Of a stretch of 64,000 nt of DNA, positions 31,106 to 48,355 are shown one piece after another (the first letter of the stretch is position 1; each line of letters opens with the position of its first letter). The position numbers and the translations under genes were made by a program. The notes beneath the pieces were generated by a model. The model was not told the origin of the DNA, ran no database searches, and worked only from the letters and a program-made list of their open reading frames with translations. The stretch is from Catenovulum sediminis (GTDB lineage Bacteria; Pseudomonadota; Gammaproteobacteria; Enterobacterales; Alteromonadaceae): positions 2,852,001 through 2,916,000 of the forward strand of contig NZ_CP041660.1 in assembly GCF_007289895.1 (NCBI RefSeq). Reading direction: 5' to 3'.

Positions 31106-31618
31106 ATGCAAATTAACTTAATAAAAAATGATACACAGATCAATTCGGTCGCTTCTTCTAGTATTATTTCAATATTATCTAATGATAAATACATAAAAAG
31201 CAGTTACTTTTTATTTGATGGCTATTTTCGCAAATCTTCATATGAATCGAGATATGAAATTGAGCAACAACTGAACCAAACTGAGTTTATTTTAACTTCC
31301 GCGGCTACTTCACTGGCTTTATTTAAAGTAACGTCTTTCGACCCAGACAATGAGGTCATCAGTTTTAAGCTATTGCAATTATTTGATAATACCAATACGA
31401 CTTGTCAGCACACAATAAAGCATATTTTTAACAGTATTATTCAGTTCTTAGAAGAGCATTTTAAGGTCTCAAGGTTTTGCACAAGCCTTTTGTTAAATGA
31501 AAAATCAGGTACACCAGTGATTACTGAAAACATGGCGCTTGAAGCAACGCTTTCTGGGCAAGTTTTCTTAGATGGTCAATATAATGATTTATGTTTGTTT
31601 GGATATAACAAAAGGTAA
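31106..31618 (+). CDS. Hypothetical protein, possibly a degenerate GNAT-fold protein
   Basis: 170 residues, ATG preceded by AAGGA. I do not recognise it confidently. The C-terminal third (MALEATLSGQVFLDGQYNDLCLFGY) resembles the end of GNAT acetyltransferases, where an E..L..G...DG.Y.D...YG pattern recurs, but the acetyl-CoA loop motif is not evident. It is the first gene of the island cluster and sits three bases before a clearer GNAT gene. Low GC, like the rest of the cluster. Confidence 0.45.
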   Translation: MQINLIKNDTQINSVASSSIISILSNDKYIKSSYFLFDGYFRKSSYESRYEIEQQLNQTEFILTSAATSLALFKVTSFDPDNEVISFKLLQLFDNTNTTCQHTIKHIFNSIIQFLEEHFKVSRFCTSLLLNEKSGTPVITENMALEATLSGQVFLDGQYNDLCLFGYNKR

Positions 31619-31621
31619 CCC

Positions 31622-32158
31622 ATGGAGTTTTCAGGTTTATTCGTATCTTTTAGAAAAATTGAACCAGACGATATTGAGCGAGTAGCTGACTGGCTTCATT
31701 CTGATGTTTTTCGTGAAAATTTATATGCTATCCCTTTAGACAAAGGGATGTCTAAAAAAGATATCGTTATTGATTTTATTAAAAAGAATTCTGATGACTA
31801 TCACCCTGACAAGTATTTTGTGATTGAAGAAAAAAAGAATAAAAACTTAGTTGGTTTAACGTTATTTAATAATCTTGACTGGAAAAACAGAACGGTTGAA
31901 TACAACTACATTATAGGTGATCCCGCTAGAAGAAATGGTATTTATGGCTCAGATATATCACTGGCAATCTGTAATTATGCTTTTAATTCGCTGAACTTAA
32001 ATAAAGTGATTGGTTATACCTACGAATTTAATAAGCAAGCTCAACGTGTTAATAATTTTATTGCTGATGTTGAAGGGGTTTTAGTTGCTCACCATAAACA
32101 TCAGGGGCGCTATATTGATGTCATTATTCATAGCCTGAGTAAACGGAAGTTTTCGTGA
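31622..32158 (+). CDS. GNAT (RimJ/RimL-like) N-acyltransferase, C-terminal tail replaced by IS66 B
   Basis: 178 residues as read. VSFRKIEPDDIERVADWL opens the fold, the acyl-CoA loop region is IIGDPARRNGIYGSDI, and the C-terminus EGVLVAHHKHQGRYIDVII is typical of RimJ-like enzymes. The final Ser and stop codon come from the end of the IS66 element. Joining across one target copy (32154 to 34718) restores a frame with about 22 further residues that ends at 34784, overlapping the CPBP gene start. In a peptide cluster such an enzyme could acylate the precursor or give self-protection; both are inference. Confidence 0.78.
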   Translation: MEFSGLFVSFRKIEPDDIERVADWLHSDVFRENLYAIPLDKGMSKKDIVIDFIKKNSDDYHPDKYFVIEEKKNKNLVGLTLFNNLDWKNRTVEYNYIIGDPARRNGIYGSDISLAICNYAFNSLNLNKVIGYTYEFNKQAQRVNNFIADVEGVLVAHHKHQGRYIDVIIHSLSKRKFS

Positions 32159-32238
32159 CCTTACGGCAACATAGCGCAAATAATTAAAATCAACTTGGCA
32201 TACTTGATTGCAACCTAAACAAACCAAGGCGCAATCAA

Positions 32239-32628
32239 ATGAACACCACCTTATCGTTAGAACAAACCAAAGCACAATTTGCCCACTGGCGCGACAACAA
32301 AGAAACTTTAGGCACAATCACACCAGATAAATTACGCAGGCAAGCTGTTGAGCTGACACAACACTATTCCACCACTAAAGTCGTGACAACTCTAGGATTA
32401 AGTGGCTCAGTGATTAAACGTTGGCAATCAGACTTAAAACTCACTCAAACAACCGACGCCCCCATTGACGCATTTGTTGCTTTGCCAAACAGCCAGGCGG
32501 TTTATTCAACTATTGCACAAGCATCAATTGTATTAAACGATGGCTCTAGCATTGTACTCAATGGCGGTGCCAGTACTCAGTTATTGTCCGTTATCGCACA
32601 AGCTTGTAACACTGCCAATCAACTTTAA
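32239..32628 (+). CDS. IS66 B first accessory protein (TnpA-like)
   Basis: 129 residues with a helix-turn-helix region (LTQHYSTTKVVTTLGLSGSV followed by IKRW) and a C-terminal ASIVLNDGSSIVLNGG segment as in IS66-family orf1 proteins. It precedes the TnpB-like gene by 11 bases. Confidence 0.8.
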   Translation: MNTTLSLEQTKAQFAHWRDNKETLGTITPDKLRRQAVELTQHYSTTKVVTTLGLSGSVIKRWQSDLKLTQTTDAPIDAFVALPNSQAVYSTIAQASIVLNDGSSIVLNGGASTQLLSVIAQACNTANQL

Positions 32629-32639
32629 CAGGTGCGTTT

Positions 32640-32969
32640 ATGTTACAACTCTCTGCTCAAACCGCCATATTGTTAGCCACCCAGCCGCAAGACTTCCGCA
32701 AAGGCATTGATGGCTTTGTTGCCGTATGTCGTGATTCATTACAACAAAACCCCAGGGCGGATATTCGCTTTGTGTTTATTAACAAAAGTCGAACCATGCT
32801 ACGGGTATTAACCTATGATGGCAGTGGCTATTGGCTGATGACTAAACGTTTGTCTAAAGGACGCTTTCAAAACTGGCCAAATTCACAAAATAAAGTATCG
32901 CCCATGTTGGCGACTGAACTTAGGGTGCTGTTAAAGGGTGAAGCCAACCCAACTTATAAAAAAGTATAA
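32640..32969 (+). CDS. tnpB: IS66 B TnpB-like accessory protein
   Basis: 109 residues with the IS66 Orf2 signature QPQDFRKGIDGFVAVCRD and a FVFINKSRTMLRVLTYDGSGYWL block, ending shortly after LSKGRFQNWP. Intact. Confidence 0.92.
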   Translation: MLQLSAQTAILLATQPQDFRKGIDGFVAVCRDSLQQNPRADIRFVFINKSRTMLRVLTYDGSGYWLMTKRLSKGRFQNWPNSQNKVSPMLATELRVLLKGEANPTYKKV

Positions 32970-33071
32970 AATAAATTGAACTAAATGAAATGCCTGTGAT
33001 CTGATCTGGCAACTAAACAAAATAACCATGCAAAATAACCATGCAAAATAACCATGCAAAATAACAAGATA

Positions 33072-34652
33072 ATGACTCAAACTTTTACCGACATCAGTAG
33101 CCAAGCATTGGATGCATTGATTGAGCGGGTGACACAAGCCAAAGAGCACCAATTAACACTTTCATCAGAAGATTGTGCATTACTCTTAGATGCCTTAGTC
33201 ACCCTAGCCAGTATGCAAGAGCGGCTCAATGACAATGACATCACCATAAATAAGCTAAGAAAACTGGCAGGCATGGTTCAATCATCCGAGCGTTTAAAAT
33301 CGAACTTAACGAAAAGCAAAAAACCTAAACAGCATGGGCGAAAAAACAAAGTCCAACCGACACAAATAAAACCAGAAGTGATTCACCACAAACACACCGA
33401 TTTACAAAAGGGTGATAGCTGCCTTGAATGCCCAACGGGCAAACTATACAAATTTGAACCTGCAACCTTTTTAAGAATTACCGGACAAAGTCCATTCAAA
33501 CCAGAGCAACACGTCATGGAGCGCCTGCGCTGTAATGCCTGTGGCGCTTATTTTACTGCCGCGGTCACTGACGATGTACTGGCCGATGGTGATGTACACC
33601 AAAAGTATGGTTACACCGCGCGCTCGTTAATGTGTCTATATAAATATTTTGCAGGCTCACCTTTTTATCGCCAAGGCAGCATGCAAGATTTATTAGGGGT
33701 CTCTATCAGCGCATCGACCATCTTTGACCAAATAGAGCATGTCGCGAATGCAATTTACCCAGTACACAAATATTTAACCGAGCTGGCAGCGACAGCCGAA
33801 CATTACCATTTGGACGACACAACGAATCGAATTTTAAACCAAACCTCAGTGATGAAAAAATCACGAGATGGTAAAACCAGAGCGCGCACAGGCATTTATA
33901 CATCAGGGTTAATTGCCAAAGTAGCAGAGTACAACATCGTGCTATTCCAAACCAACATAGGCCATGCTGGTGAATTTATCGATGAGATATTACAAAAACG
34001 GCCAAACGATTTAGCTGAGCCCATATTAATGAGTGATGCACTTTCGGCCAATCAACCGAGCAAAGTAAAAGTTAAAATGAGCTTGTGTAATAGTCATGCT
34101 AGGCGGCAATTTTATGATGTACACAGTCATTTTCCAGAAGAAGTGGCTTGGGTCATAGAAGAGTATGGCAAAATCTGGCATCACGAAAGCATAGTTCAAC
34201 AACAGAACATGTCAGCACAACAACGGCTTGTTTATCACCAGCAACACTCGTTGCCAGTGATGTACAGTATTGCCAATTGGGGGAAAGCGCATTTAGACAA
34301 GGGCACAGTAGAAGCCAATAGTGGTTTAGGTAAAGCAATTAATTATTACTTAAAACATTTTGCTGGACTGAGTGCATTCTGCAGCACAGAAGGTGCACAA
34401 CTAGACAACAACAAAATAGAAAACCAATTAAAGTTAATTATACGCGATAGAAAAAATGCGATGTTCAAAAAAACGCAAGTGGGCGCAGACATTGGTGATG
34501 TATTAACCTCACTCATTGCAACCTGTGTTGAAGCAGGCGCCAATGCGCTAGAGTATTTGACTGTGCTGCAGCGCGAAAGTGAACAAATTAGATTAACGCC
34601 AGAGCTTTACTTACCTTGGAATTATACGGCTCAAAACCAAAGCTCAGATTAA
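33072..34652 (+). CDS. IS66 B transposase
   Basis: 526 residues from the ATG at 33072 (an in-frame ATG at 33054 lies in the triplicated 13-mer). It has an N-terminal coiled-coil/HTH region, a zinc-like CLECPTGK...CNACGAYF segment, and a DDE domain with HLDDTTNRIL, ILMSDALSANQP and NKIENQLKLIIRDRKNAMF. It appears complete. Confidence 0.93.
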   Translation: MTQTFTDISSQALDALIERVTQAKEHQLTLSSEDCALLLDALVTLASMQERLNDNDITINKLRKLAGMVQSSERLKSNLTKSKKPKQHGRKNKVQPTQIKPEVIHHKHTDLQKGDSCLECPTGKLYKFEPATFLRITGQSPFKPEQHVMERLRCNACGAYFTAAVTDDVLADGDVHQKYGYTARSLMCLYKYFAGSPFYRQGSMQDLLGVSISASTIFDQIEHVANAIYPVHKYLTELAATAEHYHLDDTTNRILNQTSVMKKSRDGKTRARTGIYTSGLIAKVAEYNIVLFQTNIGHAGEFIDEILQKRPNDLAEPILMSDALSANQPSKVKVKMSLCNSHARRQFYDVHSHFPEEVAWVIEEYGKIWHHESIVQQQNMSAQQRLVYHQQHSLPVMYSIANWGKAHLDKGTVEANSGLGKAINYYLKHFAGLSAFCSTEGAQLDNNKIENQLKLIIRDRKNAMFKKTQVGADIGDVLTSLIATCVEAGANALEYLTVLQRESEQIRLTPELYLPWNYTAQNQSSD

Positions 34653-34767: not shown

Positions 34768-35358
34768 ATGGAATTTTTCAATAATATTTCTACCTTCTAC
34801 CTTATTAGCTTTTTGATGTTATTCCGAGCTTTCTTATATCAATTGCCAGGCTATTTGCTTGATGCCGTGGTTTTAGTCTTAGGTCTTGGGCTTTTGGGGC
34901 AGGTATTTAAATTGACAGAACTTTCGTTATATCAGTTTGCTTTATTTCCAGTGTTCGGCGTTGTGATGTTTTTAATTTCGACAGGGATTAGTTCTCATCT
35001 TAAGTTAACACTTCAGGCGATGATAAATAATCTAACGAGGTTAGATCGCGATATCTATTGGCTTACTTTATTGCATTTAGCCACTGCCATTTACGAAGAA
35101 ATAATATGGCGTGGAATTTTTTTGATAGCAATGTCGAATATTGCAGGTGCGAGTTTGTCGGTTATCGTGTCTTCTGTGTTTTTTGTGGTGTGGCATAAAA
35201 GCCAATTAATATCATGGCGTCATGTTACTGAGATGTTTTTATTTAGTATCGTGCAGTGTGTTTTGTATTTTATTTTTGAGAATATTTTTCTAATTATTAC
35301 GATTCATTTCATCAGAAATATTTTTGTCGTTATAACAAATTATGGGTTAAAAAGATGA
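34768..35358 (+). CDS. CPBP family glutamic-type intramembrane protease
   Basis: 196 residues, strongly hydrophobic with about six helices. All three catalytic motifs are present: E110-E111...R115 (EEIIWR), F139...H143 (FVVWH) and H180...N184 (HFIRN). Family members prenyl-process in eukaryotes and in bacteria occur in bacteriocin and quorum-peptide loci as processing or immunity proteins. Its stop overlaps the next ATG (ATGA), so it is coupled to the MacA-like gene. A role in leader removal or self-protection is inference. Confidence 0.85.
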   Translation: MEFFNNISTFYLISFLMLFRAFLYQLPGYLLDAVVLVLGLGLLGQVFKLTELSLYQFALFPVFGVVMFLISTGISSHLKLTLQAMINNLTRLDRDIYWLTLLHLATAIYEEIIWRGIFLIAMSNIAGASLSVIVSSVFFVVWHKSQLISWRHVTEMFLFSIVQCVLYFIFENIFLIITIHFIRNIFVVITNYGLKR

Positions 35359-36374
35359 AACTTGTGGTGTTGCTGTTTGTTACATTAATTGTTGGTGCTT
35401 TATATATGCAGTTAGGCTGGAGTAGAAATACAACGCCGAATGCTTATGAAACATACCGTGTTAAATCTGGCGACTTAATTATTACTCATACGGTTAGCGG
35501 TATTTTTGAGAGTAAAAATAAGTTTATTGTGCGTAGTGGTATGACAGGTAAAGTCGAAGAACTTTTAATTAATGAAGGCGATACAGTTAATAAAGGTCAA
35601 CCAATTGTTAAGTTAGATTGCCGCAAACATAACTTAGAAATAGAGGATATTAAATTATCTATTGAGCGAACAAACTACTCATTAAATCATTTTAAGAAAG
35701 AAGAGCAAGCTTTAGAAAGCCTTTACCAGGCTGGTGGTAAGTCTAAACAAGAGGTTAGTGAATTAACTTATAAAATAGCTGAACTGGATTTTGACCATAA
35801 GCGACTAATTAATGAATTAAAGCAAAAGCATCTTATGGCTGAACATTGCTTAGTTCATAGTGCTACTAATGGGGTTGTTTCTGATGTGTTGGTGAAAGAA
35901 GGGCAGATAGTAAATAGTGGTGAAAAATTTGCTCAACTTATTGATACCAGTGATATCAAGTTAGTTTCTTATGTTAATGAGTTTGATGTTAAAAGTTTTG
36001 AAGTGGGTCAAAAAATTAAAGTGTCTTTAGGCGAATATGACAAAACCAGCTTTGATGGCCAAATTACTTATATTAGTGAGCTAGTTGTTAAACATGAGGG
36101 AGCAAATGCTGTTGAAGTTGAGTTCAGCCTTGACAATATGACTCAGGGTATAAAGGTTGGTCAGCAGGCTATCGTGAATGTTGAAACCAACTCATACCTT
36201 AATGTGAAAATCGTACCGCAAGAATTTTTGAAATTTACTGAACAAGGTATTTTTATCAACTTTCTGGACGGAGACGAAATAGCAGCAAAGCAAATAACAC
36301 CCGTAGGCGGTGATTATATCAATGTTGGCGTGCGTGATGAGCTTATTGAAGGAATGCAATTAATTAAGCATTAA
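35355..36374 (+). CDS. HlyD/MacA-type periplasmic adaptor protein
   Basis: 339 residues with one N-terminal transmembrane anchor (about 4-16). The biotinyl-lipoyl-like halves are split around a coiled coil: GMTGKVEELLINEGDTVNKG and ATNGVVSDVLVKEGQIVNSG flank the hairpin at about 85-160. A beta-barrel follows with VNEFDVKSFEVGQKIKVSLG. It links an inner-membrane ABC pump to TolC. It is followed after 16 bases by the ATPase gene. Confidence 0.9.
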   Translation: MKLVVLLFVTLIVGALYMQLGWSRNTTPNAYETYRVKSGDLIITHTVSGIFESKNKFIVRSGMTGKVEELLINEGDTVNKGQPIVKLDCRKHNLEIEDIKLSIERTNYSLNHFKKEEQALESLYQAGGKSKQEVSELTYKIAELDFDHKRLINELKQKHLMAEHCLVHSATNGVVSDVLVKEGQIVNSGEKFAQLIDTSDIKLVSYVNEFDVKSFEVGQKIKVSLGEYDKTSFDGQITYISELVVKHEGANAVEVEFSLDNMTQGIKVGQQAIVNVETNSYLNVKIVPQEFLKFTEQGIFINFLDGDEIAAKQITPVGGDYINVGVRDELIEGMQLIKH

Positions 36375-36390: not shown

Positions 36391-37056
36391 ATGATCGAGC
36401 TACAGGATGTCAATAAACATTATGCAATTTACCGGGATAAATTACCCGTTATTAACAATATCAATATGGTTATTGGTAGCGGCGAAATGGTAAGTATTAT
36501 CGGTCGATCTGGCTCGGGTAAATCAACATTACTTAATTTAATTGGTTGTTTAGATACGGTGTCATCCGGAAAAATTATGGTGAATAACCAAGATGTGTCC
36601 AGTTTAGACTCAAATGGTATGGCAAATTTAAGAAATGAGCGCTTTGGTTTTGTATTTCAGTCGTTCAATCTCATTGCTAGAAGCAGTGCGATTAAAAATG
36701 TAGAAGTGCCAATGATTTATAAAGGAATACCAAAGAAGGAGCGGATTGAACGAGCGGAAAAAACGTTAGCTAAATTAAATATGTTTGACAGGAAAGAGCA
36801 TTACCCTCGTCAGCTTTCTGGAGGTCAACAGCAACGGGTTGCTATTGCCAGAGCACTAGTTAACAAGCCTGATATTATTTTGGCGGATGAGCCAACAGGC
36901 GCACTTGATTCAAAAAATGCCAATGAAATTATGCAAATATTTCGTGAGCTTACCCAAGAAGGGAAAACAGTCATTATAGTGACTCATGACCCTAAAGTTG
37001 CAGAGCAATCTGATCGTGTTTTTGAAATGGAAGATGGTTATTTAAAAGGGCAGTAA
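36391..37056 (+). CDS. MacB/LolD-type ABC transporter ATPase
   Basis: 221 residues. Walker A GRSGSGKSTLLN, Q-loop VFQSFNLI, signature LSGGQQQRVAIARAL, Walker B IILADEPTGALD and the switch His in VTHDP are all intact. It is a stand-alone ATPase paired with the following permease, the split form of MacB. Its stop codon overlaps the next ATG. Confidence 0.95.
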   Translation: MIELQDVNKHYAIYRDKLPVINNINMVIGSGEMVSIIGRSGSGKSTLLNLIGCLDTVSSGKIMVNNQDVSSLDSNGMANLRNERFGFVFQSFNLIARSSAIKNVEVPMIYKGIPKKERIERAEKTLAKLNMFDRKEHYPRQLSGGQQQRVAIARALVNKPDIILADEPTGALDSKNANEIMQIFRELTQEGKTVIIVTHDPKVAEQSDRVFEMEDGYLKGQ

Positions 37057-38306
37057 TGGATACTTACATAAAATTGAGAGCGCTTATTACTACAGCTGTT
37101 GAGGCGCTTTCCGAAAATAAATTAAGAAGTTTACTTAGTTTGTCCGGCATCATGATTGGCATTGCTTCTATTGTATTAGTGGTTAGTGTGAACGAGTCTG
37201 GCCGACAGCTGATTTTTAAAGAGCTGGAAACATTTGGCTTAACATCTATATGGATTTCAAGGGACTGGACTGATTATTATGACCAAAAATATGGTGCTGT
37301 ATATGGTACAGGGTTGTTTAATGAAGATTATCAGTATATTCGTCAACAGTGTTGTGCCAGCTTAAAGCGACTATCTCCCATTATTACGCTTTTATCAGAT
37401 AAGTCAGTGAGCTTTCGAGGGAAAGATATTCGGGCCAATGTGATTGGTGTTAATGAAGAGTTTGACCTTATTAATAATGAAACTTTGGCCCAAGGACGGT
37501 TTATCTCCAGTACTGATATAAAACAAAAAAACTTTGTCACCGTGATCAGCCAAGATGTCGAGAAAGTATTAATGGAATCGGGCGTAAAATACCCTATCGG
37601 TGAACAAATAAATATTGCTGATAATTGGTTCACTATTGTAGGTGTGATTAAAAATAAAAGCCGAGATTTTATTTCCAGCATAGGAGCCAATAAAACTGAC
37701 CCAAATATAAGAATGTTGACTCCCTATACGACCATTCAAAATATTAAGGGAAATAATAGAGAGATTAGCTATTTCCAAGGGCAGGCGAAGGATATAGATG
37801 CTGCTGAACTTGCTGTTTATCAAGTTAAAAATTACTTAACTAAAAAGTATAAAAATCACTTTAGTTATAAAGGGGAAACCATGGTTCAGTACATAGATAC
37901 TGCCAACAATATTTTAAAGAATATTTCACTTGTCGGTTTAGTTACCGCGCTTGTCTCACTGGTTGTCGGTGGCCTGGCGGTATTGAATGTTATGTTTATG
38001 TCAGTGGTTGAAAGAACCAGAGAAATCGGTATTAGAAAAGCAATAGGAGCCAAAAATCGGGATATTCTGACTCAGTTTGTTTTAGAGTCGGTATTAATAA
38101 CCATTATTGGTGGTGTACTGGGTATAAGCTTAGCTTACTTAAGTATTACATCAGTCAGCCTGATTTATCATTTTGATGTTTCAACATCACAGTTCGGTGT
38201 TTTAATCGCACTGATTAGCACATTAACTGTTGGTTTTTTCTCCGGTTTATATCCCGCGATAAAAGCGGCGAATTTAAAACCTATTGAGTCGTTGCGGTAT
38301 GATTAA
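37056..38306 (+). CDS. MacB-type ABC transporter permease
   Basis: 416 residues. One N-terminal helix (about 25-48), a large periplasmic domain (50-290) and three C-terminal helices, with ERTREIGIRKAIGAKNRDIL, the FtsX/MacB signature. It uses ATP hydrolysis to move substrates, often peptides or lipopeptides, from the periplasm through TolC. It overlaps the TolC-like gene by eight bases. Confidence 0.93.
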   Translation: MDTYIKLRALITTAVEALSENKLRSLLSLSGIMIGIASIVLVVSVNESGRQLIFKELETFGLTSIWISRDWTDYYDQKYGAVYGTGLFNEDYQYIRQQCCASLKRLSPIITLLSDKSVSFRGKDIRANVIGVNEEFDLINNETLAQGRFISSTDIKQKNFVTVISQDVEKVLMESGVKYPIGEQINIADNWFTIVGVIKNKSRDFISSIGANKTDPNIRMLTPYTTIQNIKGNNREISYFQGQAKDIDAAELAVYQVKNYLTKKYKNHFSYKGETMVQYIDTANNILKNISLVGLVTALVSLVVGGLAVLNVMFMSVVERTREIGIRKAIGAKNRDILTQFVLESVLITIIGGVLGISLAYLSITSVSLIYHFDVSTSQFGVLIALISTLTVGFFSGLYPAIKAANLKPIESLRYD

Positions 38307-39644: not shown

Positions 39645-41309
39645 ATGATGTTCCAGTCTATTAATAAATGCTTAAAAGAAAATGCGCTGTTTTTTGCTAT
39701 CTCTTTGCAATTTAAAAAAGAGTTTGTATTACTCTTTATCTTTTCTACCTCAAGCATGCTTGCTTATTTACCTAGCCCTCTGATTATTCAACGGTTAATT
39801 GATAATCTTGAGCAAGGAAGGTTTGAGGATAAAAATGAACTGTATCTTCAGATCACTATTTTGCTTGTTGTTATGTTAGGGGCGATTATTCTGGGGTACT
39901 TTCTTGCTATTTATATTGCCAAAGTTGTCAAACGCTATAATTCGAGCATTAAAACGAACATTTATAAAGCGGTTGTTTATGCTAAGTATCAAGAGTTAAG
40001 TAAAATCTCGGAAACTGATATTCAGGCAAGAGCAACACGAGATGTTGACTCCATTGGTTATTTAACGCCCGTAGGTTTAAGTACTTTATCTGTTGAGTTG
40101 TTAAAATTAATTTTTCTTATTGGGCTCTTATTTTACACCAATTTGTATTTAACACTCTCACTATTAATAATGTTGCCTATCTCCTTCTTTATTTTTAAAT
40201 ACTTTAGTGCACCGTTATATAACCTTTCTAAAAACAGTCACGAAACTTTTTCTGATTATAATTCAAAAATTTTGGAAGCTTTTTCAAGTGTCAGAGAATG
40301 TCAGGTCGACAATTCTTTTGAATATCATACCCAAAAAGTTCAGGAACGTATTGATGAGAGTGAAGGGGCTAAGTTTAATTGGACCATAGTTAATCGAAAA
40401 ATTAATGTGCTGATGAGCTCTCTACCTATTATTGTTTCAGTTTTAGTCTGGGCAATTGGTGGTAGCAAAGTGATTGATAGCACCATGACATTAGGTGAAG
40501 TGATGGCCTATATGATTTTTTTATCCATGTTATATACGCCTGTTGCTGCTTTTTATAATTTTATGGCTGAATTTCATTTTGATATTTCTGCGATAGAAAG
40601 AATTGAACAGATATTATCAATTAGTCAAATACCGTTAACCGTACCAGGTCGATTAAACCAATTTACCCAGCAATTAGAAGCAAGAGATATTTCATTATTG
40701 TATGGAGAAAAGCAGGTTTTAGACCAGGTGAATTTTTCTATAAAGCCCGGAGAAGTTATTTGTATCGATGGCATCAATGGTAGCGGTAAAACAAGTTTTA
40801 TCAATATCCTGTTGGGGTTAATTAGCCCTGATAAAGGAAAGTTATACCTTGATGATGTCGAATTAAAGCTTGAGGATGTGCAGTTTTTTCGTGAATCGAT
40901 TGGCTTCGTGCCGCAAGATGTTTTTATTTATAACGATTCACTGATTAATAATATTACTCAGGGTAAAACCTACTCAGACGATAGGATTATATCGGTCATT
41001 GAACAAGTTGGTTTGACTGATATGTATCAAAATTTGGAGACTGATCAGCTATTGTTACTGACACCTAAAACGCTTTCTGGCGGCATGAAACAAAAAATAG
41101 GATTAGCAAGGGCGCTAATTAAATTACCTGGCATCTTAATTTTAGATGAACCAACTAATCATTTAGATCCTGAAACCAAACAGCAAATTAAAAATGTTAT
41201 TTGCCAGTCGGGTGATGTTTCAGTGATTTATATTTCTCATGATCCGGATATGCAAGTAGCTGCTGATCGTGTTTTAACGCTTTCACTAGGGAAATTAACT
41301 AATGGATAA
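39645..41309 (+). CDS. ABC exporter (fused membrane and ATPase domains, no C39 peptidase)
   Basis: 554 residues. Six transmembrane helices (about 25-330) are followed by an ATPase with GINGSGKTSFIN, VPQDVFIYNDS, LSGGMKQKIGLARAL and ILILDEPTNH. The protein starts almost directly with the membrane domain, so the N-terminal C39 peptidase seen in many bacteriocin exporters is absent. It likely moves the peptide or a lipid intermediate across the inner membrane. It overlaps the ketosynthase start by eight bases. Confidence 0.9.
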   Translation: MMFQSINKCLKENALFFAISLQFKKEFVLLFIFSTSSMLAYLPSPLIIQRLIDNLEQGRFEDKNELYLQITILLVVMLGAIILGYFLAIYIAKVVKRYNSSIKTNIYKAVVYAKYQELSKISETDIQARATRDVDSIGYLTPVGLSTLSVELLKLIFLIGLLFYTNLYLTLSLLIMLPISFFIFKYFSAPLYNLSKNSHETFSDYNSKILEAFSSVRECQVDNSFEYHTQKVQERIDESEGAKFNWTIVNRKINVLMSSLPIIVSVLVWAIGGSKVIDSTMTLGEVMAYMIFLSMLYTPVAAFYNFMAEFHFDISAIERIEQILSISQIPLTVPGRLNQFTQQLEARDISLLYGEKQVLDQVNFSIKPGEVICIDGINGSGKTSFINILLGLISPDKGKLYLDDVELKLEDVQFFRESIGFVPQDVFIYNDSLINNITQGKTYSDDRIISVIEQVGLTDMYQNLETDQLLLLTPKTLSGGMKQKIGLARALIKLPGILILDEPTNHLDPETKQQIKNVICQSGDVSVIYISHDPDMQVAADRVLTLSLGKLTNG

Positions 41310-42540
41310 AAGAAAGGTTGTAGTTACAGCAGTTAATGCCTGTTGTTCACTTGGTCATGATATTGATACAGTTTGGCATAACCTTAAGCAAGGGAATAGT
41401 GGTATCAAACCCATCTCTAGGTTTAATGCTGAGCGCCACTTTACAAAAATAGGCGGCGAAATAGATGATGCTTACCGAGATATATTGGACTTAACGGGAC
41501 AAAGTGCTGTGTCTAAGAATGGAGAATTGTCACTGTTATGTGGTCAGGGCTTGTTTTTACAAGAAAATGCTAAGGGTATTTTTGAATCTTATCCTGATAT
41601 TGGTCTTATATTGGGGTCTGGCTTGGGAGGCCTTTATTTTTCAGAAGATAACCTGAAAAAAATGTATGAAACTGGTGGCAAACGGATTCACCCGATGACA
41701 GTGCCCAATGTTGACCCTAATAGCATTGTTAGCGCCTTAAGTCGACGCTGGCAAATACATGGGCATCAATTTTCAATTAGTACCGCTTGTTCGTCAGGTG
41801 CTAATGCAATTGGCACCGCATTAGATCTTATTCGCAATGGTCGTTTAGATTGTATTGTTACTGGTGGTGTTGAATATACCTTTACGACGTTATTGTATGC
41901 AGGCTTTGATCAATTAAGAGCAATGTCACGCTGTAATGATACCCCAGAAACTAGCTGTAAACCTTTTTCTCAAGGCCGTGATGGCTTTATTATGGGAGAA
42001 GGAGCAGCAATGCTGGTGTTAGAAAGTGAAGAAAGGGCTTTGTCCAGAGGAGCAACTATTTTAGCTGAATTGACAGGTTATGGGGTCACTGGTGGTGCTT
42101 ACCATGTTGTAAAACCGATAGAAGATGGCTCTGATGGTAAAAAAGCTATGGCGTTGGCATTAAGCGATGCTGGAATTGACAGTGATAATATTGATTTTAT
42201 TAGTCCACATGGCACCGGCACCGCATTAAATGATCAGGCTGAATACAATGCGATGGCTGCATTATTTGGCCCTAAAACGTCAGATATTCCTGTTGTCCCG
42301 ATTAAACAGCTTACCGGACATATGTTAGGAGCCAGTGGCGCGCTTGAAGCTGTTCATACGGTCAAATGTATTGAAGACCAGATTGTTACGCCCATTGCCT
42401 ATTATCAAGCTGAAGCCAACCAGAAACTCAACATTTCTGTTGGCGAGGCAAATCAACACTCAATCAAACATGCAATGTCAAATTCTTTTGGTTTTGGTAA
42501 TAACAATGTATCGCTCATTATGAGCCAATACCATCATTAA
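41302..42540 (+). CDS. FabF-type beta-ketoacyl-ACP synthase
   Basis: 412 residues with thiolase-fold ketosynthase features throughout. The catalytic triad is intact: Cys163 (STACSSGAN), His303 (SPHGTGT) and His340 (KQLTGHMLGASGA), the same numbering as E. coli FabF. GEGAAMLVLE and FGFGNNNVSL are further signatures. The primary-metabolism FabF is expected elsewhere. Placed between an exporter and an ACP it is likely dedicated to making or extending an acyl group for this cluster. Confidence 0.92.
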   Translation: MDKRKVVVTAVNACCSLGHDIDTVWHNLKQGNSGIKPISRFNAERHFTKIGGEIDDAYRDILDLTGQSAVSKNGELSLLCGQGLFLQENAKGIFESYPDIGLILGSGLGGLYFSEDNLKKMYETGGKRIHPMTVPNVDPNSIVSALSRRWQIHGHQFSISTACSSGANAIGTALDLIRNGRLDCIVTGGVEYTFTTLLYAGFDQLRAMSRCNDTPETSCKPFSQGRDGFIMGEGAAMLVLESEERALSRGATILAELTGYGVTGGAYHVVKPIEDGSDGKKAMALALSDAGIDSDNIDFISPHGTGTALNDQAEYNAMAALFGPKTSDIPVVPIKQLTGHMLGASGALEAVHTVKCIEDQIVTPIAYYQAEANQKLNISVGEANQHSIKHAMSNSFGFGNNNVSLIMSQYHH

Positions 42541-42557: not shown

Positions 42558-42818
42558 ATGAAAATTACTGTAATAGAACTTAAAAATATCCTTAGTTCTG
42601 AGCTGGAAAAAGGCGCTTTAGATCATATTGACGAATCAACCAATTTAGAACATTTTGGCCTGGATTCAGTCGGCTTTTTTACCATGATTTATAAAATTGA
42701 AGATGCCTGCAATATTGAATTTGATGAAGAAACGCTGGACCAGCTGACATTAAAAAGCACCTTAGGTGATTTACTTTCCGTGATCACTGCCAAAGGCGTA
42801 GAAGTGGTGCCTGCTTAA
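42558..42818 (+). CDS. Acyl carrier protein
   Basis: 86 residues. The phosphopantetheine attachment Ser37 sits in HFGLDSVGF, and the acidic helix II (YKIEDACNIEFDEE) is characteristic. It starts 17 bases after the ketosynthase stop. It likely carries the acyl chain handled by the ketosynthase and a cluster acyltransferase. Confidence 0.92.
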   Translation: MKITVIELKNILSSELEKGALDHIDESTNLEHFGLDSVGFFTMIYKIEDACNIEFDEETLDQLTLKSTLGDLLSVITAKGVEVVPA

Positions 42819-42832: not shown

Positions 42833-42855
42833 TGTACATCTCGTACTTGATGTAA
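42833..42855 (+). repeat. Conserved leader motif upstream of the decayed precursor
   Basis: A 23-base element (TGTACAT, three variable positions, then GTACTTGATGTAA) matches 43108-43130 in 20 or more positions. It begins 63 bases before the lost start codon, the downstream copy 65 bases before its ATG. It is either part of the duplicated unit or a shared control element; the near-palindromic GTAC arms are suggestive. Confidence 0.65.
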
Positions 42856-42895
42856 TCCCTGTCATTTTGGGAAATATTATAAAAAGGAAAAAGAA

Positions 42896-43045
42896 ATAGA
42901 AAACTTACATTTAAATATTTAGAAAAAAACACTAGGCCCAACATTAGCCAAAGGTAACTTTAGAGGGCTTATTGCTACTCCGGCACCTTTCGAACCAGCT
43001 ATAACACCTGTTTGTGGTTGTGTTCCACCTAAGGTTATTAAGTGA
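42896..43045 (+). pseudogene. Decayed precursor-peptide gene (start lost, internal stop)
   Basis: Reading from 42896 in the frame aligned to the intact precursor gives ATA for ATG, ENLHLNI, a TAG stop at codon 9, then KKTLGPTLAKG, matching the intact leader KKALGPTLAKG. The core after codon 20 is different and Pro-rich, with a CGC motif (VCGCVPPKVIK), ending in TGA. The ribosome-site region AAAAAGGAAAAAGAAAT is identical to the downstream gene. This is a sister precursor with a shared leader and divergent core, now inactive through at least two mutations. Confidence 0.85.
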
Positions 43046-43071: not shown

Positions 43072-43099
43072 TTGACACATTGTTTGTGTTAGATGTAAA
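43072..43099 (+). promoter_or_regulatory. Possible promoter between the two precursor genes
   Basis: A perfect TTGACA at 43072-43077 is followed after 16 bases by TGTAAA, a weak -10. It lies about 75 bases before the intact precursor ATG. The -35 is good and the -10 poor, so this is tentative. Confidence 0.35.
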
Positions 43100-43107
43100 C
43101 GAATTCT

Positions 43108-43130
43108 TGTACATGTTGTACTTGATGTAA
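43108..43130 (+). repeat. Conserved leader motif upstream of the intact precursor
   Basis: Second copy of the 23-base element described at 42833. It begins 65 bases before the precursor ATG and is followed by ATATTATAAAAAGGAAAAAG, also shared with the decayed copy. Confidence 0.65.
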
Positions 43131-43172
43131 CCCTCCCGTGATAAATGGGAATATTATAAAAAGGAAAAAGAA

Positions 43173-43388
43173 ATGCAAAATTTGAATTTAAATATTAAGA
43201 AAAAAGCGCTAGGTCCAACATTAGCAAAAGGTGGAAAAACGACTGTAGAAACAGATAATCCAAATCCAAATTCGGACATAGACATTTGCTACGGTGGAAG
43301 TTCAAGAATTTGTGCAGGAGGAACTTATGATCCTAATACAGGCAATGCAGGCGGAGCTGTTACATATAAAAATGACTCATGTTGCTAG
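43173..43388 (+). CDS. Putative ribosomal precursor peptide (Cys/Gly-rich)
   Basis: 71 residues. Basic leader-like N-terminus (NIKKKALGPTLAKGG, double Gly at 20-21), then an Asn/Pro-rich linker and a core with Cys39, Cys47, Cys70 and Cys71, Gly pairs at 41-42, 49-50 and 60-61, ending in Cys-Cys. No signal peptide or similarity to housekeeping proteins. An AAAAAGGAAAAAG ribosome site precedes the ATG and a stem-loop follows the stop. The sister copy with identical leader and unrelated core strongly supports a precursor role. The modification type is unknown. Confidence 0.75.
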   Translation: MQNLNLNIKKKALGPTLAKGGKTTVETDNPNPNSDIDICYGGSSRICAGGTYDPNTGNAGGAVTYKNDSCC

Positions 43389-43409
43389 ACAACAATAAAT
43401 TTTAATTTT

Positions 43410-43440
43410 AAAAGTAGTGCTTTCGATAGCGCTACTTTTA
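43410..43440 (+). terminator. Stem-loop after the precursor gene (terminator or attenuator)
   Basis: AAAAGTAGTGCT and AGCGCTACTTTTA pair around a short TTCGAT loop, 22 bases after the precursor stop, with T-rich sequence on the right arm. Such structures between a precursor and its enzymes often limit read-through so that the peptide mRNA is in excess. Confidence 0.75.
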
Positions 43441-43470: not shown

Positions 43471-44391
43471 ATGTTAGCTATAATTAATAAACTAAAGTGT
43501 TATATAAATAAAATATTTTCTTATATTTTTTTACTTCCTATTCAATACTCTAAGAAAAAAAAGCGTCGCTCTAAATTTGCTCATCTTATAGTTCAGTTTA
43601 TTGCTGTTGCTTTGAATATAAAAAATAGAGAAGCGTGCTTGATATATAAGAAGGGAATTAAAAGTGCAGTAACATTTCACTATAACTATTCTTATTTAGC
43701 TAATTTATCAGTAAATGATATTGCAAAAGAAATTAGCAAAGTCAAAATTATTAATGAGGAATATGTTCGTACTGCTGAAGTTGAAAAACGCCCTATAATT
43801 TTAGTTTCGATTAAAAGTGGAGATTTTTATAGAGGGTTTCTAAGGCTCGCCGAAATAACAACCTTAAATAAGGAATTAAATATTATCAAAGTATCAGGTA
43901 AGTCTGATAATGAAGACAAATTGTATGCAAAATTAAAACGCTACTGTAAAAGATTAAATATTATTAGATTTGATGATGATATCGCTAAAAAATGTTTTTA
44001 TCAGCTAAGAAAGAATAATATAGCAATATTTATGAATGATATGGAAGTGAGGGTTAATAAGCGAGTTACTGTCGACTTTATGGGAAAGGATACTCATTTT
44101 CAATGTGGTATTGCTGAATTAGCTGTTATCACAAAATCTGTTGTTGTCCCCGTTGTGAATTATAAAGATGATAAAAATCAACATACCTTAAAAATCGAAG
44201 AGCCGATTGATGTTGAATTACTTCAACATGAGGGGATGGCAGGTAAAGTACATTATATAACCCAGCGCCTAGCGAGCGATATGCAAGACTGGCTGAGAAG
44301 TTATCCTGAGCAAATTCATTATTGGGATGAAATTGCTGATACTTTTTATGCATCAAAAGATAGAAAGGTGAATGATGTTATTAAATATTAG
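43471..44391 (+). CDS. LpxL/HtrB-like lysophospholipid acyltransferase relative with non-canonical motif
   Basis: 306 residues from the ATG at 43471; an earlier in-frame start at 43417 would lie within the stem-loop. The C-terminal half (IFMNDMEVRVNKRVTVDFMG, then FQCGIAELAVITKSVVVPV) follows the pattern of lipid A acyltransferases. At the position of the catalytic HX4(D/E) motif the sequence reads IKSGDFYRG, with Lys115 for His and Tyr120 for the acid. It may be a non-acyltransferase relative or use other residues. It overlaps the S9 peptidase gene by 20 bases. Confidence 0.65.
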   Translation: MLAIINKLKCYINKIFSYIFLLPIQYSKKKKRRSKFAHLIVQFIAVALNIKNREACLIYKKGIKSAVTFHYNYSYLANLSVNDIAKEISKVKIINEEYVRTAEVEKRPIILVSIKSGDFYRGFLRLAEITTLNKELNIIKVSGKSDNEDKLYAKLKRYCKRLNIIRFDDDIAKKCFYQLRKNNIAIFMNDMEVRVNKRVTVDFMGKDTHFQCGIAELAVITKSVVVPVVNYKDDKNQHTLKIEEPIDVELLQHEGMAGKVHYITQRLASDMQDWLRSYPEQIHYWDEIADTFYASKDRKVNDVIKY

Positions 44392-46309
44392 ATTAATTAT
44401 TGTATTAACTTTATCTAGTTTTATCTTATCTTGTTCAACGACAAGCTTTCCTATTTTTAAGCGGATTGATGCACCTGATAGCTATGAGCTCATTCCTCTA
44501 AGGAAACTTTTTGCCAATATTGATACTAAGTTAGGCTATAAAATAAGCCCTGATGGTACAAAGTTAGCATGGGTTGAGGTAATAGAAGATCGTTTAGAGT
44601 TAAAGATTAAGGATTTATCTACGGACAATACAAACATTATAAAAACTCCTTTTATCGATCAAAATTTTTATTGGGGAGATGAATCGCGATATATATTATT
44701 TCCTATTTATTCTCAACAAGTTAAAGAATCTAAAATAGCATTAATTGATACCTATGAAAGAGAAAAAATAAATACTAATCTATTATTATCAAATCTTTCT
44801 GGCAGTTTAAGAATACACCGTATTATTTTACAGCCTAGCGTTACTTTAGTATTGAAAAGAAATGTTTTGAACGAATTACCCGAATATTACCTAATGGAGT
44901 TATCGGAAGGTGCCCCTCAGAAAATTGACTTAAATGAAAAACATATTGTTGATTTAATTGTAAAAGATAAGAAGATTGTTGCTCGTATTCGGCAAAAAGA
45001 TAATCAACGTTTTATTGAAAAGCAAAGTAACAGTGGGTTTATTACGATATCTGAGTGTAGTGATATTAATGCAAATATAAAGTTATTAAGCCTTGATAGC
45101 GATGGCTTTCTTAATTACACCTCTAATTGTGAATCAGATAAATTACAGCTAATTCGAGCTAAAAATAAGCTTTATAAACATTATACTTGTAATGCAATTG
45201 AAGAATGTAATTCTGATGTTGCTCAAGTGGTGGTAAATCCTGTCAATGGCATACCCTACTTTTCTTTATATCATGAACAAAATTCAATAACTTTTAACTT
45301 ACAAAACGATAGTGCTTTTCAAAAACTGACCAATGAGCTTCAAGGTAAAATAAAAATTATCAGTATGGATCGAGACTTTAATCGGTTAACACTCGAAAAC
45401 TCATCTCATTTAGGTGAGCGTTACTATTTAGTTGATTTAGAGCGAAATAACATCGCAATGTTATCTAAAGGGCAACTTTTTGATTATCAATCTTTTATCA
45501 AACCCGCACAGTTTATTCAAATTCATAATGAAAGCAATACACCTTTATATGGCTATTATTACCCGGCTCAAGTCCAATTTTCAGAAAAGAAATCCGCTAT
45601 GATCTTATTACATGGCGGGCCTGAAGAAAGGAGTTACCCTGATTATGACAGAGAAGCGATATTATTATCTAACAGGGGCTATGATGTGATATCGCTGAAT
45701 TATCGAGGGTCGAAAGGATTTGGGCACCAATACCAGCAACAAGCCTATAACAATATCGAAGTGATGTTGAATGATATTGAATCAGCAAGCCAATGGTTAA
45801 TTAATGTTAAAAATGTTGATAAAAGCGCTATTGGACTTATGGGCGGCAGTTATGGTGGTTATTTAGCGTTATTAGCTAGTAAATACCAACAAAATAAGTG
45901 TATTGTCTCGATTAATGGTATTTATGATTTATATCAAACCGCGCTAACTTTTCAGGATAACCCGGTTAATTTCTTTATTCGCTATTATGGCGGTATTGAT
46001 AATATCAGGCAGGGTAAATTTGATGAGTATTCACCAATTAAATATAGTAATTATCAGGACAACCACTATTTGCTAGTTCAGTCTGAATATGATAGCAAAG
46101 TCCCTTTTCAAACTGCTGTTGATTTTTATGATTTAGTTCAAGCAAATAACGATGTTGAATTCATTGTTATTAAAGATGTTCATGATATTCGTAAGTGGTA
46201 TAACCGACTTGAAAGCTACCGTAATATTGAGGTGTTTTTACGGCAATGTTTGGGAGGGGGCGATGCGGGCTTCGAATACTATCTACTAGCAAAACCGTTT
46301 TATGAATAA
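44372..46309 (+). CDS. S9 family (prolyl oligopeptidase-like) peptidase, predicted lipoprotein
   Basis: 645 residues. The N-terminus is a lipoprotein signal (LSSFILSCST, Cys21). A beta-propeller-like region (about 50-390) precedes the alpha/beta hydrolase domain. The catalytic triad is visible: Ser493 (GGSYGG), Asp574 (SEYDSKVPF) and His604 (DVHDIRKW). HGGPEER is the oxyanion-hole region. Envelope location suits processing or clearing of an exported peptide. A second ATG at 44375 has better ribosome-site spacing. Confidence 0.87.
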   Translation: MMLLNIRLIIVLTLSSFILSCSTTSFPIFKRIDAPDSYELIPLRKLFANIDTKLGYKISPDGTKLAWVEVIEDRLELKIKDLSTDNTNIIKTPFIDQNFYWGDESRYILFPIYSQQVKESKIALIDTYEREKINTNLLLSNLSGSLRIHRIILQPSVTLVLKRNVLNELPEYYLMELSEGAPQKIDLNEKHIVDLIVKDKKIVARIRQKDNQRFIEKQSNSGFITISECSDINANIKLLSLDSDGFLNYTSNCESDKLQLIRAKNKLYKHYTCNAIEECNSDVAQVVVNPVNGIPYFSLYHEQNSITFNLQNDSAFQKLTNELQGKIKIISMDRDFNRLTLENSSHLGERYYLVDLERNNIAMLSKGQLFDYQSFIKPAQFIQIHNESNTPLYGYYYPAQVQFSEKKSAMILLHGGPEERSYPDYDREAILLSNRGYDVISLNYRGSKGFGHQYQQQAYNNIEVMLNDIESASQWLINVKNVDKSAIGLMGGSYGGYLALLASKYQQNKCIVSINGIYDLYQTALTFQDNPVNFFIRYYGGIDNIRQGKFDEYSPIKYSNYQDNHYLLVQSEYDSKVPFQTAVDFYDLVQANNDVEFIVIKDVHDIRKWYNRLESYRNIEVFLRQCLGGGDAGFEYYLLAKPFYE

Positions 46310-46350
46310 GTTGTTTATTTATTTCATATCAGAAAATAAGTAGGACGTTT

Positions 46351-46902
46351 ATGTATAAATTTGTATCTTTTTTTACCTTATTATTCTTTTCTGTCACCTC
46401 AAGTGCTCAAGTTATTTTAGAAGATAAAACCATTTATTTGTCTGTATTGGAGGGGCTGGAAGGTAAACAAAGGCATTATGTTGCGGGTATCCAATTTCCT
46501 AATAGAAAAAACCTTGGTTATCTTGAAGTTGGGGTTTTAGATAGCTTAAACACTGAGACTGAGTTTAATGGTTTTATTACTTTAGGCGCAGGCTATAACT
46601 GGAATCTTTATCATCATAAGTATTATGATTTTTATTTAGGTGGTGGTGCTATTGCAGCTTTTCAAGGAAAGTGTAATCAAAATACAGTGGATATTCAAAA
46701 GCGTGAATTTTGTGCAGATGATAAAAATAAAGATGGGGTTTATGGTGATACTGATTTATTACTATACCCAGAGCTTAGGTTAACTTTTAATATGACCAAA
46801 AGTTTTGTTATTGAATTAAACGCGAGAAAATATTTTTCAGTAAATAAAGATTTTACGCCTGATAATGCTTTTGTAGGCGTTTCTTTTACTTTTGAATTGT
46901 AA
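46351..46902 (+). CDS. Small secreted beta-barrel-like protein
   Basis: 183 residues with a signal peptide ending SSAQ. The mature part has alternating strand-like segments (NLGYLEVGVLDSL, GFITLGAGYNWNLY, DFYLGGGAIAAFQG) and ends in a strand with terminal FTFEL, consistent with a small outer-membrane barrel. A DDKNKDGVYGDTD loop looks like a calcium-binding turn. The family is not recognised. Position suggests an envelope or immunity role. Confidence 0.6.
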   Translation: MYKFVSFFTLLFFSVTSSAQVILEDKTIYLSVLEGLEGKQRHYVAGIQFPNRKNLGYLEVGVLDSLNTETEFNGFITLGAGYNWNLYHHKYYDFYLGGGAIAAFQGKCNQNTVDIQKREFCADDKNKDGVYGDTDLLLYPELRLTFNMTKSFVIELNARKYFSVNKDFTPDNAFVGVSFTFEL

Positions 46903-46963
46903 GTACTGAAGTAGATATAGCCGTCGCTATATTAAGAATAATATTAAAAAAGATAATGTAGAT

Positions 46964-48355
46964 ATGGATATTAATAATATTAAACGATTATTTGGAATGA
47001 CTTATGGTTTGGTGATGCTGGCAGCTTGCGACTCTTCAGAAACAATTGAAGCAGAATATGTTGGTAACTATGATACCCCTCCTTTAATTCAGGCCTTAGA
47101 TGCACCTTTAACAGAATGCCCTGAGCGTGTATGGGCAAGTGCCAGTCAAAATTTTAAGCAATCTGAAGTATTGGTTATTGACCGACCTAGAGGGATAAAA
47201 AATGCCTTTCACTGGCAGGCAATTGATAAGAGTGTCAACAATGTTGAACTTGAATTTTTAGATCCACAATGGTTTCTTCTTTATAACTTTGGCTATTACT
47301 TTGGTAAGAAAACAGTAGGGCTAAATGCGTTAGAAATTAGTCATCATCTTCGTAGCGATGGTTCTACATATTGGAAACATGATGTGCATTTACTTTTTCA
47401 TGAGCTTTTTCATTACTTTGCTCAGGAAAACTGGCTAATAGATTCTCACGAACGTGGTGATGTCTACCCATTACACTGGCAACCTCGTTATCTACGCACT
47501 AAGTTAATTTATGCCTTACAAGAAGCATTAAGCAATAAGTCAGATTTATCAGAAGCCAAATACTGGTACAGGCGTTACTTGCAGGAACACCCAGAAGAAG
47601 CTGTTGTTACTAACGTTTTCGACAACATTGAAGGAACTGCCGAATATGCCGGCTATGTGATGCTTGCTTTGGCTGAATACGGCTGTAACATTTCTGAGGA
47701 GCAATTAATTAAAAATATCAATGATAATATCATTGCTTTTGATTATACCTTAACTTCAAACCTTGAATCTTATCGACTGGGGTTATTGTCAGGTTTATTA
47801 TTAAGGGAAAGAAGTAATGAAAACTGGCAAGTACAAGTGGAAAATGGTGTGCCATTGGTTGGTATATTACTAAAAAACATTCCTGAAAAGTATGTTAGCT
47901 ATGATACAGAACTTGCTAATAAAATAAGTGAAGACGTTGCTTATGAGAATGGTTTGTTACATATGAAATTTTCTCCAGCTATAAATACTTTTAAAAACCC
48001 AGAATATTACCGCTTATCTTTGAGTGCTGAATCGCTGAATTTCTTTCAAATGTCGGGTGCTTATTTTATTAATAATGAAGCCAATATTAATAAAATTACT
48101 GCGGATTTTGAAGGGGATTTAATGTTGGGGGGAGATGTTATTATAGAAGCTAACGGGATACAGCTCATAGAAGTTAAAAACACTCCATGTCGTGAAGGTT
48201 TTGATATAAATCAGTTTATTTTCCCTATTCATAAAGATGAAATTAAATTTGATGAGCTGGAACGTGTTGCTTTTTCTAACTCTGCTTTAACTTTTAAAGA
48301 TCTTAAAATTGATAAAGTTAACGTGGATGGATATCAATGGCTTTGTATTAACTAA
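46964..48355 (+). CDS. Predicted lipoprotein with HExxH metallopeptidase motif
   Basis: 463 residues. Lipobox LAAC with Cys22. The zinc-protease motif H146-E147-x-x-H150 appears in LLFHELFHYFAQ, and a downstream NIEGTAEYAGYVMLALAE could provide the third ligand Glu. The C-terminal third is beta-rich. I do not recognise the family. It lies at the end of the cluster, before the small hypothetical frame and the right repeat. A peptidase acting on the exported product is possible but unproven. Confidence 0.65.
   Translation: MDINNIKRLFGMTYGLVMLAACDSSETIEAEYVGNYDTPPLIQALDAPLTECPERVWASASQNFKQSEVLVIDRPRGIKNAFHWQAIDKSVNNVELEFLDPQWFLLYNFGYYFGKKTVGLNALEISHHLRSDGSTYWKHDVHLLFHELFHYFAQENWLIDSHERGDVYPLHWQPRYLRTKLIYALQEALSNKSDLSEAKYWYRRYLQEHPEEAVVTNVFDNIEGTAEYAGYVMLALAEYGCNISEEQLIKNINDNIIAFDYTLTSNLESYRLGLLSGLLLRERSNENWQVQVENGVPLVGILLKNIPEKYVSYDTELANKISEDVAYENGLLHMKFSPAINTFKNPEYYRLSLSAESLNFFQMSGAYFINNEANINKITADFEGDLMLGGDVIIEANGIQLIEVKNTPCREGFDINQFIFPIHKDEIKFDELERVAFSNSALTFKDLKIDKVNVDGYQWLCIN

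Follow-up and report, generated by a model that had tools for sequence, protein, structure and literature searches.

We describe here a gene cluster of Catenovulum sediminis that very probably encodes a leader-guided peptide system. It occupies positions 31106-48355 of a 64,000-nucleotide stretch of contig NZ_CP041660.1 (contig positions 2,852,001 to 2,916,000; this whole stretch is hereafter called the window). All coordinates given below are those of the window, and the parts of the cluster and its bracketing repeats lie on the plus strand. A first-pass annotation made from the letters of the window had proposed a peptide pathway in which an acyl chain supplied by a ketosynthase (KS) and an acyl carrier protein (ACP) would be moved to a ribosomal peptide by a GNAT-type or an LpxL-like protein. 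The peptide pathway is well supported by the conservation of gene order and of the precursor leader. As for the lipid, the chances appear about even, judging from sequence, that the chain built by the KS and the ACP ends on the peptide. This reading is retained because the KS and ACP genes adjoin precursor genes in two genomes and nothing else presents itself as a substrate.

Precursor genes and conservation of the cluster

The intact precursor gene (43173..43388) encodes 71 amino acids, with MQNLNLNIKKKALGPTLAKG as leader and a core containing four Cys and eight Gly. Pfam scans covered 20 proteins, 15 from the cluster and five flanking ones. In Pfam and NCBIfam scans the intact precursor gave no significant match, and its leader fits no proteusin or Nif11 model. 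The first-pass annotation had picked out this frame and overlooked a second, broken precursor gene at 42896..43045. This relic reads ATA where the start codon would be, and its ninth leader codon is TAG; ATG, GTG or TTG in frame past the stop codon was sought by eye and none was found. After its leader copy comes a different core, containing Cys and Pro, that ends at 43045. Two related segments, 81.5% identical, are located between the ACP and LpxL-like genes: the relic frame opens in the first (42815-42955) and the intact frame in the second (43089-43232).

The leader pattern matched twice within the window; 100 shuffles gave a mean of 0.00 matches. In the 4.87 Mb genome, the relaxed pattern LGPT-x-AK also matched twice, both times at the cluster, and the reversed-pattern control gave 0 matches. 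Searching the contigs of a wider set of genomes with the leader pattern gave 0 matches; this pattern requires L-N and K-K, so it misses both precursors of the distant relative G750 described below. To assess conservation, the four precursors (intact and relic from the window, G750-1 and G750-2) were compared in six pairs with shuffles as baseline. Over the first 20 residues, 9-16 positions per pair are identical, with z values of 11.5-18.2. Beyond residue 20, z ranges from -1.0 to +1.9 and five of the six pairs are no closer than shuffled sequence, the sole pair exceeding the shuffle mean being G750-2 and the relic (29 of 500 shuffles equally good). The cores contain 4, 3, 2 and 2 Cys and 2, 3, 0 and 2 Lys in the window precursor, G750-1, G750-2 and the relic, respectively; thus G750-2 is devoid of lysine beyond residue 20. 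Of the lysine positions, only Lys19, located where leader and core meet, is common to all four precursors, and Gly-Gly is found at this leader/core boundary in one of them. That the precursor could be a chance open reading frame (ORF) was rejected in view of the leader conservation. A conserved leader followed by unrelated cores is the signature of a leader-guided family resembling the ribosomally synthesized and post-translationally modified peptides (RiPPs). As in RiPP loci, a ribosomal precursor with a conserved leader and a variable core is found together with adjoining conserved enzymes.

Five window proteins, joined into one query, were searched against 394 genomes of the order (E <=0.01). 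Ten genomes matched: the genome of the window itself, G750 with two strong matches, four genomes with HExxH-like proteins and four with weak matches. On contig 168 of G750 (24,314 bases), tblastn found 12 of the 12 proteins from GNAT-A to S9 in identical order (GNAT-A, GNAT-B, CPBP, MacA, two MacB parts, TolC, ABC, KS, ACP, LpxL-like, S9), precursors being counted apart, with identities of 32-66% to the window. The contig ends inside the S9 gene, upstream of any barrel or HExxH genes. Its two precursor genes occupy the gap between the ACP and LpxL-like genes, and the first of them is matched by the window precursor at 65% over residues 1-20 (tblastn, E 1.2e-4). The first-pass annotation had made its proposal depend on conservation of the gene set and of the 71-residue frame. 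Its refuting condition of no conservation did not hold, the set being kept in order in G750 and the frame having relatives with a conserved leader. That a distant relative has the same gene order and very different peptides suggests a peptide natural product family hitherto uncharacterized. The region upstream of the cluster in G750 (L152:3035-11561) contains, by eye, genes resembling those of helicases and nucleases as well as IS110-like transposases; it is possibly a defense or mobile island.

Further searches used overlapping genome samples, the counts of which are not additive. Searched with a profile of the two LpxL-like proteins, the remaining eight genomes of G750's family yielded no match, and 295 genomes of the window's family yielded only the own genome and G250. 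Contig 55 of G250 (3009 bases) carries a C-terminal remnant of the LpxL-like gene, the S9 gene (49.7% over 632 residues) and the barrel gene (71% over 146 residues). At positions 1-225 of this contig (L162), just before the remnant, TCTAGAATTC repeats resemble an assembly or linker artefact. Because of this appearance, the absence of upstream genes from G250 may be an assembly matter. A KS search of G250 (E <=1e-60) found a single KS, an ordinary FabF, and GNAT-B was not found there in a search run without a positive control. Among 256 genomes of the phylum, the pair profile gave the own genome and two weak matches, whose loci (3.7 kb) hold no further cluster gene at E 0.01. The single LpxL-like sequence matched ten others weakly in 369 genomes of the class (22-29% identity). 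The HExxH protein alone found only the own genome among the 295 family genomes. HExxH-like proteins of four f187 genomes (L154, L155, L156, L157) show 25-33% identity to that of the cluster along a part of their length; at L154, L156 and L157 their genes sit among other, unrelated-looking genes. Three viral sequence scans gave no relatives and a fourth gave five pattern matches, none with a second cluster gene. On plasmids, tblastn with the HExxH, LpxL-like, TolC and G750 LpxL-like proteins gave no match; with KS, S9 and ABC, all matches were below 60% identity (24-38% among the matches listed).

Ketosynthase, ACP and candidate transferases

The FabF-type KS gene (41302..42540; Pfam ketoacyl synthase; product 64% identical in G750) encodes an enzyme in which Cys163, His303, Lys335 and His340 are intact and invariant between the window and G750. 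The Cys-His-His triad named in the first-pass annotation is therefore present, together with the Lys expected of a condensing enzyme. A tree was calculated with the two cluster KSs and 32 FabF-type sequences (31 from fetched loci and one from G250), the midpoint root serving for drawing only. The cluster pair stands apart from the 32 FabF-type sequences as a separate clade (100/100) whose branch measures 2.34. It carries the motifs PHGTGTxLND and GFGNNN. Among the 32, AHGTST occurs in 28 and VHGTST in two, two leave the pattern unmatched, and none has GFGNNN. We conclude that the KS is a dedicated enzyme, because of its separate clade, long branch and motifs foreign to the FabF-type sequences. 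A recent copy of the host fabF, whose best match to the cluster KS is 38% identical, was ruled out on the same grounds. A KS scan of the wider genome contigs matched at least 591 stretches, of which 589 were confirmed; the best 80 are at most 39% identical. The adjacent ACP (42558..42818; Pfam PP-binding) has the serine first noted at position 37, within Asp36-Ser37-Val38. Its best match in the Protein Data Bank (PDB) is NodF, a weak one (E 0.004), and it is 46% identical to its G750 counterpart over 57 residues by tblastn, or 36.5% over 85 residues by a second comparison. With catalytic residues kept in both genomes, the KS and the ACP look functional.

Two small proteins are encoded at the 5′ end of the cluster, GNAT-A (31106..31618; 32% identical in G750) and GNAT-B (31622..32158; 55%). 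Both had been annotated as GNAT-type. The assignment holds for GNAT-B, which has a Pfam GNAT domain (Acetyltransf_3, E 5.7e-14), and not for GNAT-A, in which no such domain was found. Folding GNAT-A from its single sequence was uninformative (pLDDT 39.9); the two AlphaFold models made without alignment (pLDDT 39.9 and 35.8) are too poor for use. Direct comparison of GNAT-A with GNAT-B revealed no real similarity (E 0.47). By analogy, the two could possibly form a split pair, because the nostolysamide GNAT NpuN, which acylates Lys1, is a tandem protein in which one of the domains has no clear P-loop, as described in the portions of PMC13060382 consulted.

The LpxL-like protein (43471..44391; 42% identical in G750) matches Pfam Lip_A_acyltrans, in agreement with its first-pass name, though its hallmark motif is missing (see below). 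Its start is likelier at ATG 43471 than at the listed GTG 43417, the GTG falling inside a hairpin located 3′ of the intact precursor gene (43409..43440; 13-bp stem, z -3.5). This hairpin is a possible attenuator; terminator-like sites as a whole are at chance level (11 against a shuffle mean of 10.5). The LpxL-like alignment (A1) used the window sequence 43474-44391. Where five of the ten other aligned homologues read GTxRS, the cluster pair reads HFQCG (His208 and Cys211 in the first sequence of A1). Seen in two sequences, this is weak evidence for a possible alternative active site. Transfer of a KS/ACP-derived chain to the peptide by a GNAT or LpxL-like protein, as first proposed, is thus plausible from the side of the KS and the ACP, but both named transferases lack the hallmark motif of their family.

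Proposed pathway, genomic setting and alternative explanations

In the pathway that we propose, the dedicated KS would lengthen an acyl chain carried by the dedicated ACP, with host FabD, FabG and phosphopantetheinyl transferase supplying the remaining functions for chain building. The GNAT-A/GNAT-B pair would move the chain to the peptide, perhaps with the LpxL-like protein as a handler of acyl-ACP. The acceptor would be the invariant Lys19, which would become residue 1 if cleavage follows LGPT[LM]A, or the new alpha-amine. Since one core is free of lysine, these two sites are the candidates.

The ABC exporter (39645..41309; ABC_membrane and ABC_tran; 49% identical in G750) would take the peptide across the inner membrane. 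Because no Peptidase_C39 domain was matched in it by Pfam, a separate protease would be needed. Trimming could be ensured by the CPBP/Rce1-like membrane protease (34768..35358; 40% in G750), whose EExxxR, FxxxH and HxxxN motifs are intact in both genomes, and/or by the lipoprotein-like S9 peptidase (44372..46309; Peptidase_S9, GGSYG; 50% identical in G250 and 37-38% over the part present in G750). MacB takes up its substrates from the periplasm. For this reason, and given a separate ABC exporter in which no peptidase domain was matched, export may occur in two stages, the second being expulsion by a MacA-MacB-TolC assembly. The latter would consist of a MacA-like periplasmic adaptor (35355..36374; HlyD-type; 43% in G750), a MacB-type ATPase (36391..37056; Pfam ABC ATPase; 66%), a MacB-type permease (37056..38306; MacB_PCD and FtsX; 66%) and a TolC-like outer-membrane efflux protein (38284..39630; OEP; 40%). 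The CPBP protease, the MacA/MacB/TolC set and the second exporter of the first-pass annotation are all backed by Pfam. Its S9 and HExxH lipoproteins are borne out by the GGSYG and HELFH motifs, respectively, and by lipobox-like N-termini. The HExxH lipoprotein (46964..48355) and a small secreted protein, beta-barrel-like by eye (46351..46902; 71% over 146 residues in G250), both without profile match, would be accessory or immunity factors.

Several observations weigh against this pathway. GNAT-A has no significant Pfam, NCBIfam or PDB match, and the P-loop [QR]xxGx[GA] was not found in GNAT-B of the window or of G750. The LpxL-like protein has lost HX4D/E (K-SGDF-Y in the window, H-SGDF-N in G750, that is, Lys/Tyr and His/Asn at the two key positions), while HX4E or HX4D is present in 10 of 10 other aligned homologues. 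This loss does not prove inactivity, because LpxJ and PatA function without HX4D, according to the relevant part of PMC6148475. The acceptor residue and the cleavage site are guesses. Two nearly complete loci are known, those of the window and G750, plus the G250 fragment. The hairpin is not listed by a simple terminator scan, and promoter-like sites show no excess over chance (55 against a shuffle mean of 74.9). Finally, the pathway may not run in the window genome, because an insertion splits off the GNAT genes and one precursor is broken.

The genomic setting bears on this last point. Many neighbouring cluster genes overlap or abut, as first annotated, and the coordinates and single strand agree with a collinear set. 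The insertion at 32239..34652, with IS66-type ORFs named by eye, is not part of the pathway and parts the two GNAT genes from the remaining cluster. G750 has no insertion at the equivalent point, its GNAT-B gene directly overlapping the CPBP gene. G+C is 32.5-37.0% across 34-48 kb as compared to 38.8-43.9% in 1-30 kb and 50-64 kb. The cluster is bracketed by a 1660-base direct repeat (1.7-kb), which begins at the 3′ end of groEL. The left copy (26815..28474) is 98.5% identical to 48638-50297 and resumes for 92 bases at 30859-30950, past an insertion whose ORFs are IS66-type by eye. The right copy (48638..50379) comprises AraC, DUF4396 and the end of a GSDH gene. Pieces of this stretch occur in five of seven further genomes of the genus, at lengths of only 30-213 bases, and the other two have none. 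For two of those five, the best piece consists of the first 30 bases of the stretch, among them the final 18 of groEL. The cluster therefore appears to have been acquired, and the repeat suggests entry via recombination, with possible loss by the same route. On the right side of the cluster, imperfect tandem repeats of about 92 bases lie just downstream of an SDR gene (52517-52944), and a transposase-like gene pair, IS3-like by eye, lies at 53002-54557. Rfam gave no match.

Other explanations were weighed against the proposed lipidation of the peptide. The precursor could be an unmodified or disulfide-bonded, bacteriocin- or microcin-like peptide, with the KS, ACP and LpxL-like protein making a separate lipid or retuning membrane lipids, for example for self-protection. 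The 2-4 Cys in each of the four cores are consistent with this, as is the fact that 4 of the 10 other LpxL-like loci (L003, L005, L007 and L011; 44 loci were examined overall) have a KS gene next to one of the LpxL family. The S9, HExxH and barrel proteins could then serve as immunity factors. However, the precursor genes lie within the KS-ACP-LpxL block in both genomes and the LpxL hallmark residues are lost. Moreover, the C39 domain is unmatched and boundary Gly-Gly occurs in one precursor of four, which is not the picture of a class II microcin with a GG leader. We consider this explanation unlikely, although it survives best among the alternatives.

Two further explanations appear improbable to the same extent. 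One is that the KS, ACP and GNAT proteins act on the peptide beyond simple lipidation, for example by attaching a beta-keto chain through a carbon-carbon bond or some other unusual acyl linkage. It arises because no dedicated reductase is encoded: ketoreductase, dehydratase and enoylreductase domains were not found among the 15 cluster proteins scanned, and the KS has a full condensing active site. Still, reductases of the host fatty acid synthase could act in trans, and direct support for such a linkage is lacking. The other is that the cluster is a decaying mobile island, a former peptide pathway now non-functional in the window genome. The operon-internal insertion, the broken first precursor, the low G+C and the bracketing repeat argue for it, as does the G250 assembly with only the 3′ end (LpxL remnant, S9 and barrel). 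On the other hand, the remaining cluster frames are open, and one precursor, the KS and the ACP keep their key residues. An already named lipidated RiPP class, of the selidamide or the lipolanthine/goadvionin type, is very improbable: GNAT, acyl supply, leader peptide and invariant Lys19 recall it, but no lanthionine synthetase, peptide arginase, hydroxylase or modular polyketide synthase (PKS) was matched in the cluster, and the leader fits neither of the two leader models.

Comparison with known systems

According to the consulted portions of PMC13060382, GNATs lipidate RiPPs at Lys1 (nostolysamides) or at the N-terminus (microvionin, goadvionins, lipoavitides). A 2022 review calls RiPP lipidation very rare (PMC9505594). 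In the consulted portions of these two sources, lipidated RiPPs (selidamides, nostolysamides, lipolanthines, goadvionins and lipoavitides) are described mainly with lanthipeptide enzymes, and PMC13060382 also mentions GNAT-related clusters without lanthionine synthetase. The acyl chains of selidamides and nostolysamides derive from primary metabolism or acyl-CoA (PMC9505594, PMC13060382). Like these systems, the present cluster has a leader-bearing precursor, a GNAT gene and exporters. It differs from them, as far as they are described there, by a dedicated KS and ACP, by two separate small proteins, one of them a recognized GNAT, and by its leader. The lanthionine synthetase and/or arginase of selidamide clusters was not found in it. 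Selidamides bear a fatty acyl group that a GNAT attaches to a Lys or Orn side chain; selidamide-like side-chain acylation in all four precursors could use only Lys19. Lipolanthines and goadvionins are polyketide hybrids with an N-terminal lipid attached by a GNAT (same sources and extent). Goadvionins, lipolanthines such as microvionin, and lipoavitides are class III lanthipeptides. In contrast, our cluster has only one stand-alone KS and ACP, and neither a class III lanthipeptide synthetase nor a modular PKS was found in it. As first annotated, no lasso, YcaO or radical-SAM RiPP enzyme was matched by Pfam among the 20 proteins, nor was a ThiF-type one. A preprint reports a RiPP lipidated via the lipoprotein pathway (PMC12636315); the lipid on a ribosomal peptide is alike and the route, by its title, differs. 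The present gene set occurs in no lipidated RiPP cluster described in the consulted portions of PMC9505594 and PMC13060382, and it is likewise not described in the titles and abstract openings surfaced by searches of the open-licence PMC literature.

Partial likenesses extend beyond RiPPs. NodE and NodF make the special acyl chain in Nod-factor synthesis, and the NodE/NodF/NodA system resembles the cluster in combining a dedicated FabF-type KS, an ACP and an acyltransferase; the NodF match of the ACP is weak, as stated above. NodA acylates a chito-oligosaccharide, whereas the proposed substrate here is a peptide. CPBP proteins accompany microcin and bacteriocin export, and MacAB-TolC is linked to peptides such as darobactin. 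These systems share with the cluster a CPBP protease, MacAB/TolC and a small precursor; the cluster differs by having no matched C39 peptidase transporter or radical SAM enzyme. Aryl-polyene-type clusters have a KS beside an LpxL-like gene, and they are not known to have a peptide precursor. The KSs at the four LpxL-like loci named above, which recall such clusters, are 25-29% identical to the cluster KS over the matched part.

Overall, the cluster is best read as a candidate lipidated RiPP-like pathway, of a kind already known, with possible novelty at the level of the class. We put forward only tentatively, as somewhat doubtful, that a new lipidated RiPP class is involved, in which a dedicated type II KS and ACP would build the lipid in situ, acyl-ACP rather than CoA would be the donor, divergent transferases would act on a boundary lysine or the N-terminus, and an LpxL-like fold would be repurposed for peptide acylation. 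If true, this compact cluster, which brings its own acyl supply and combines a conserved leader with freely varying cores, would offer an engineerable route to lipopeptides. It would also test whether acyl-ACP can feed peptide lipidation.

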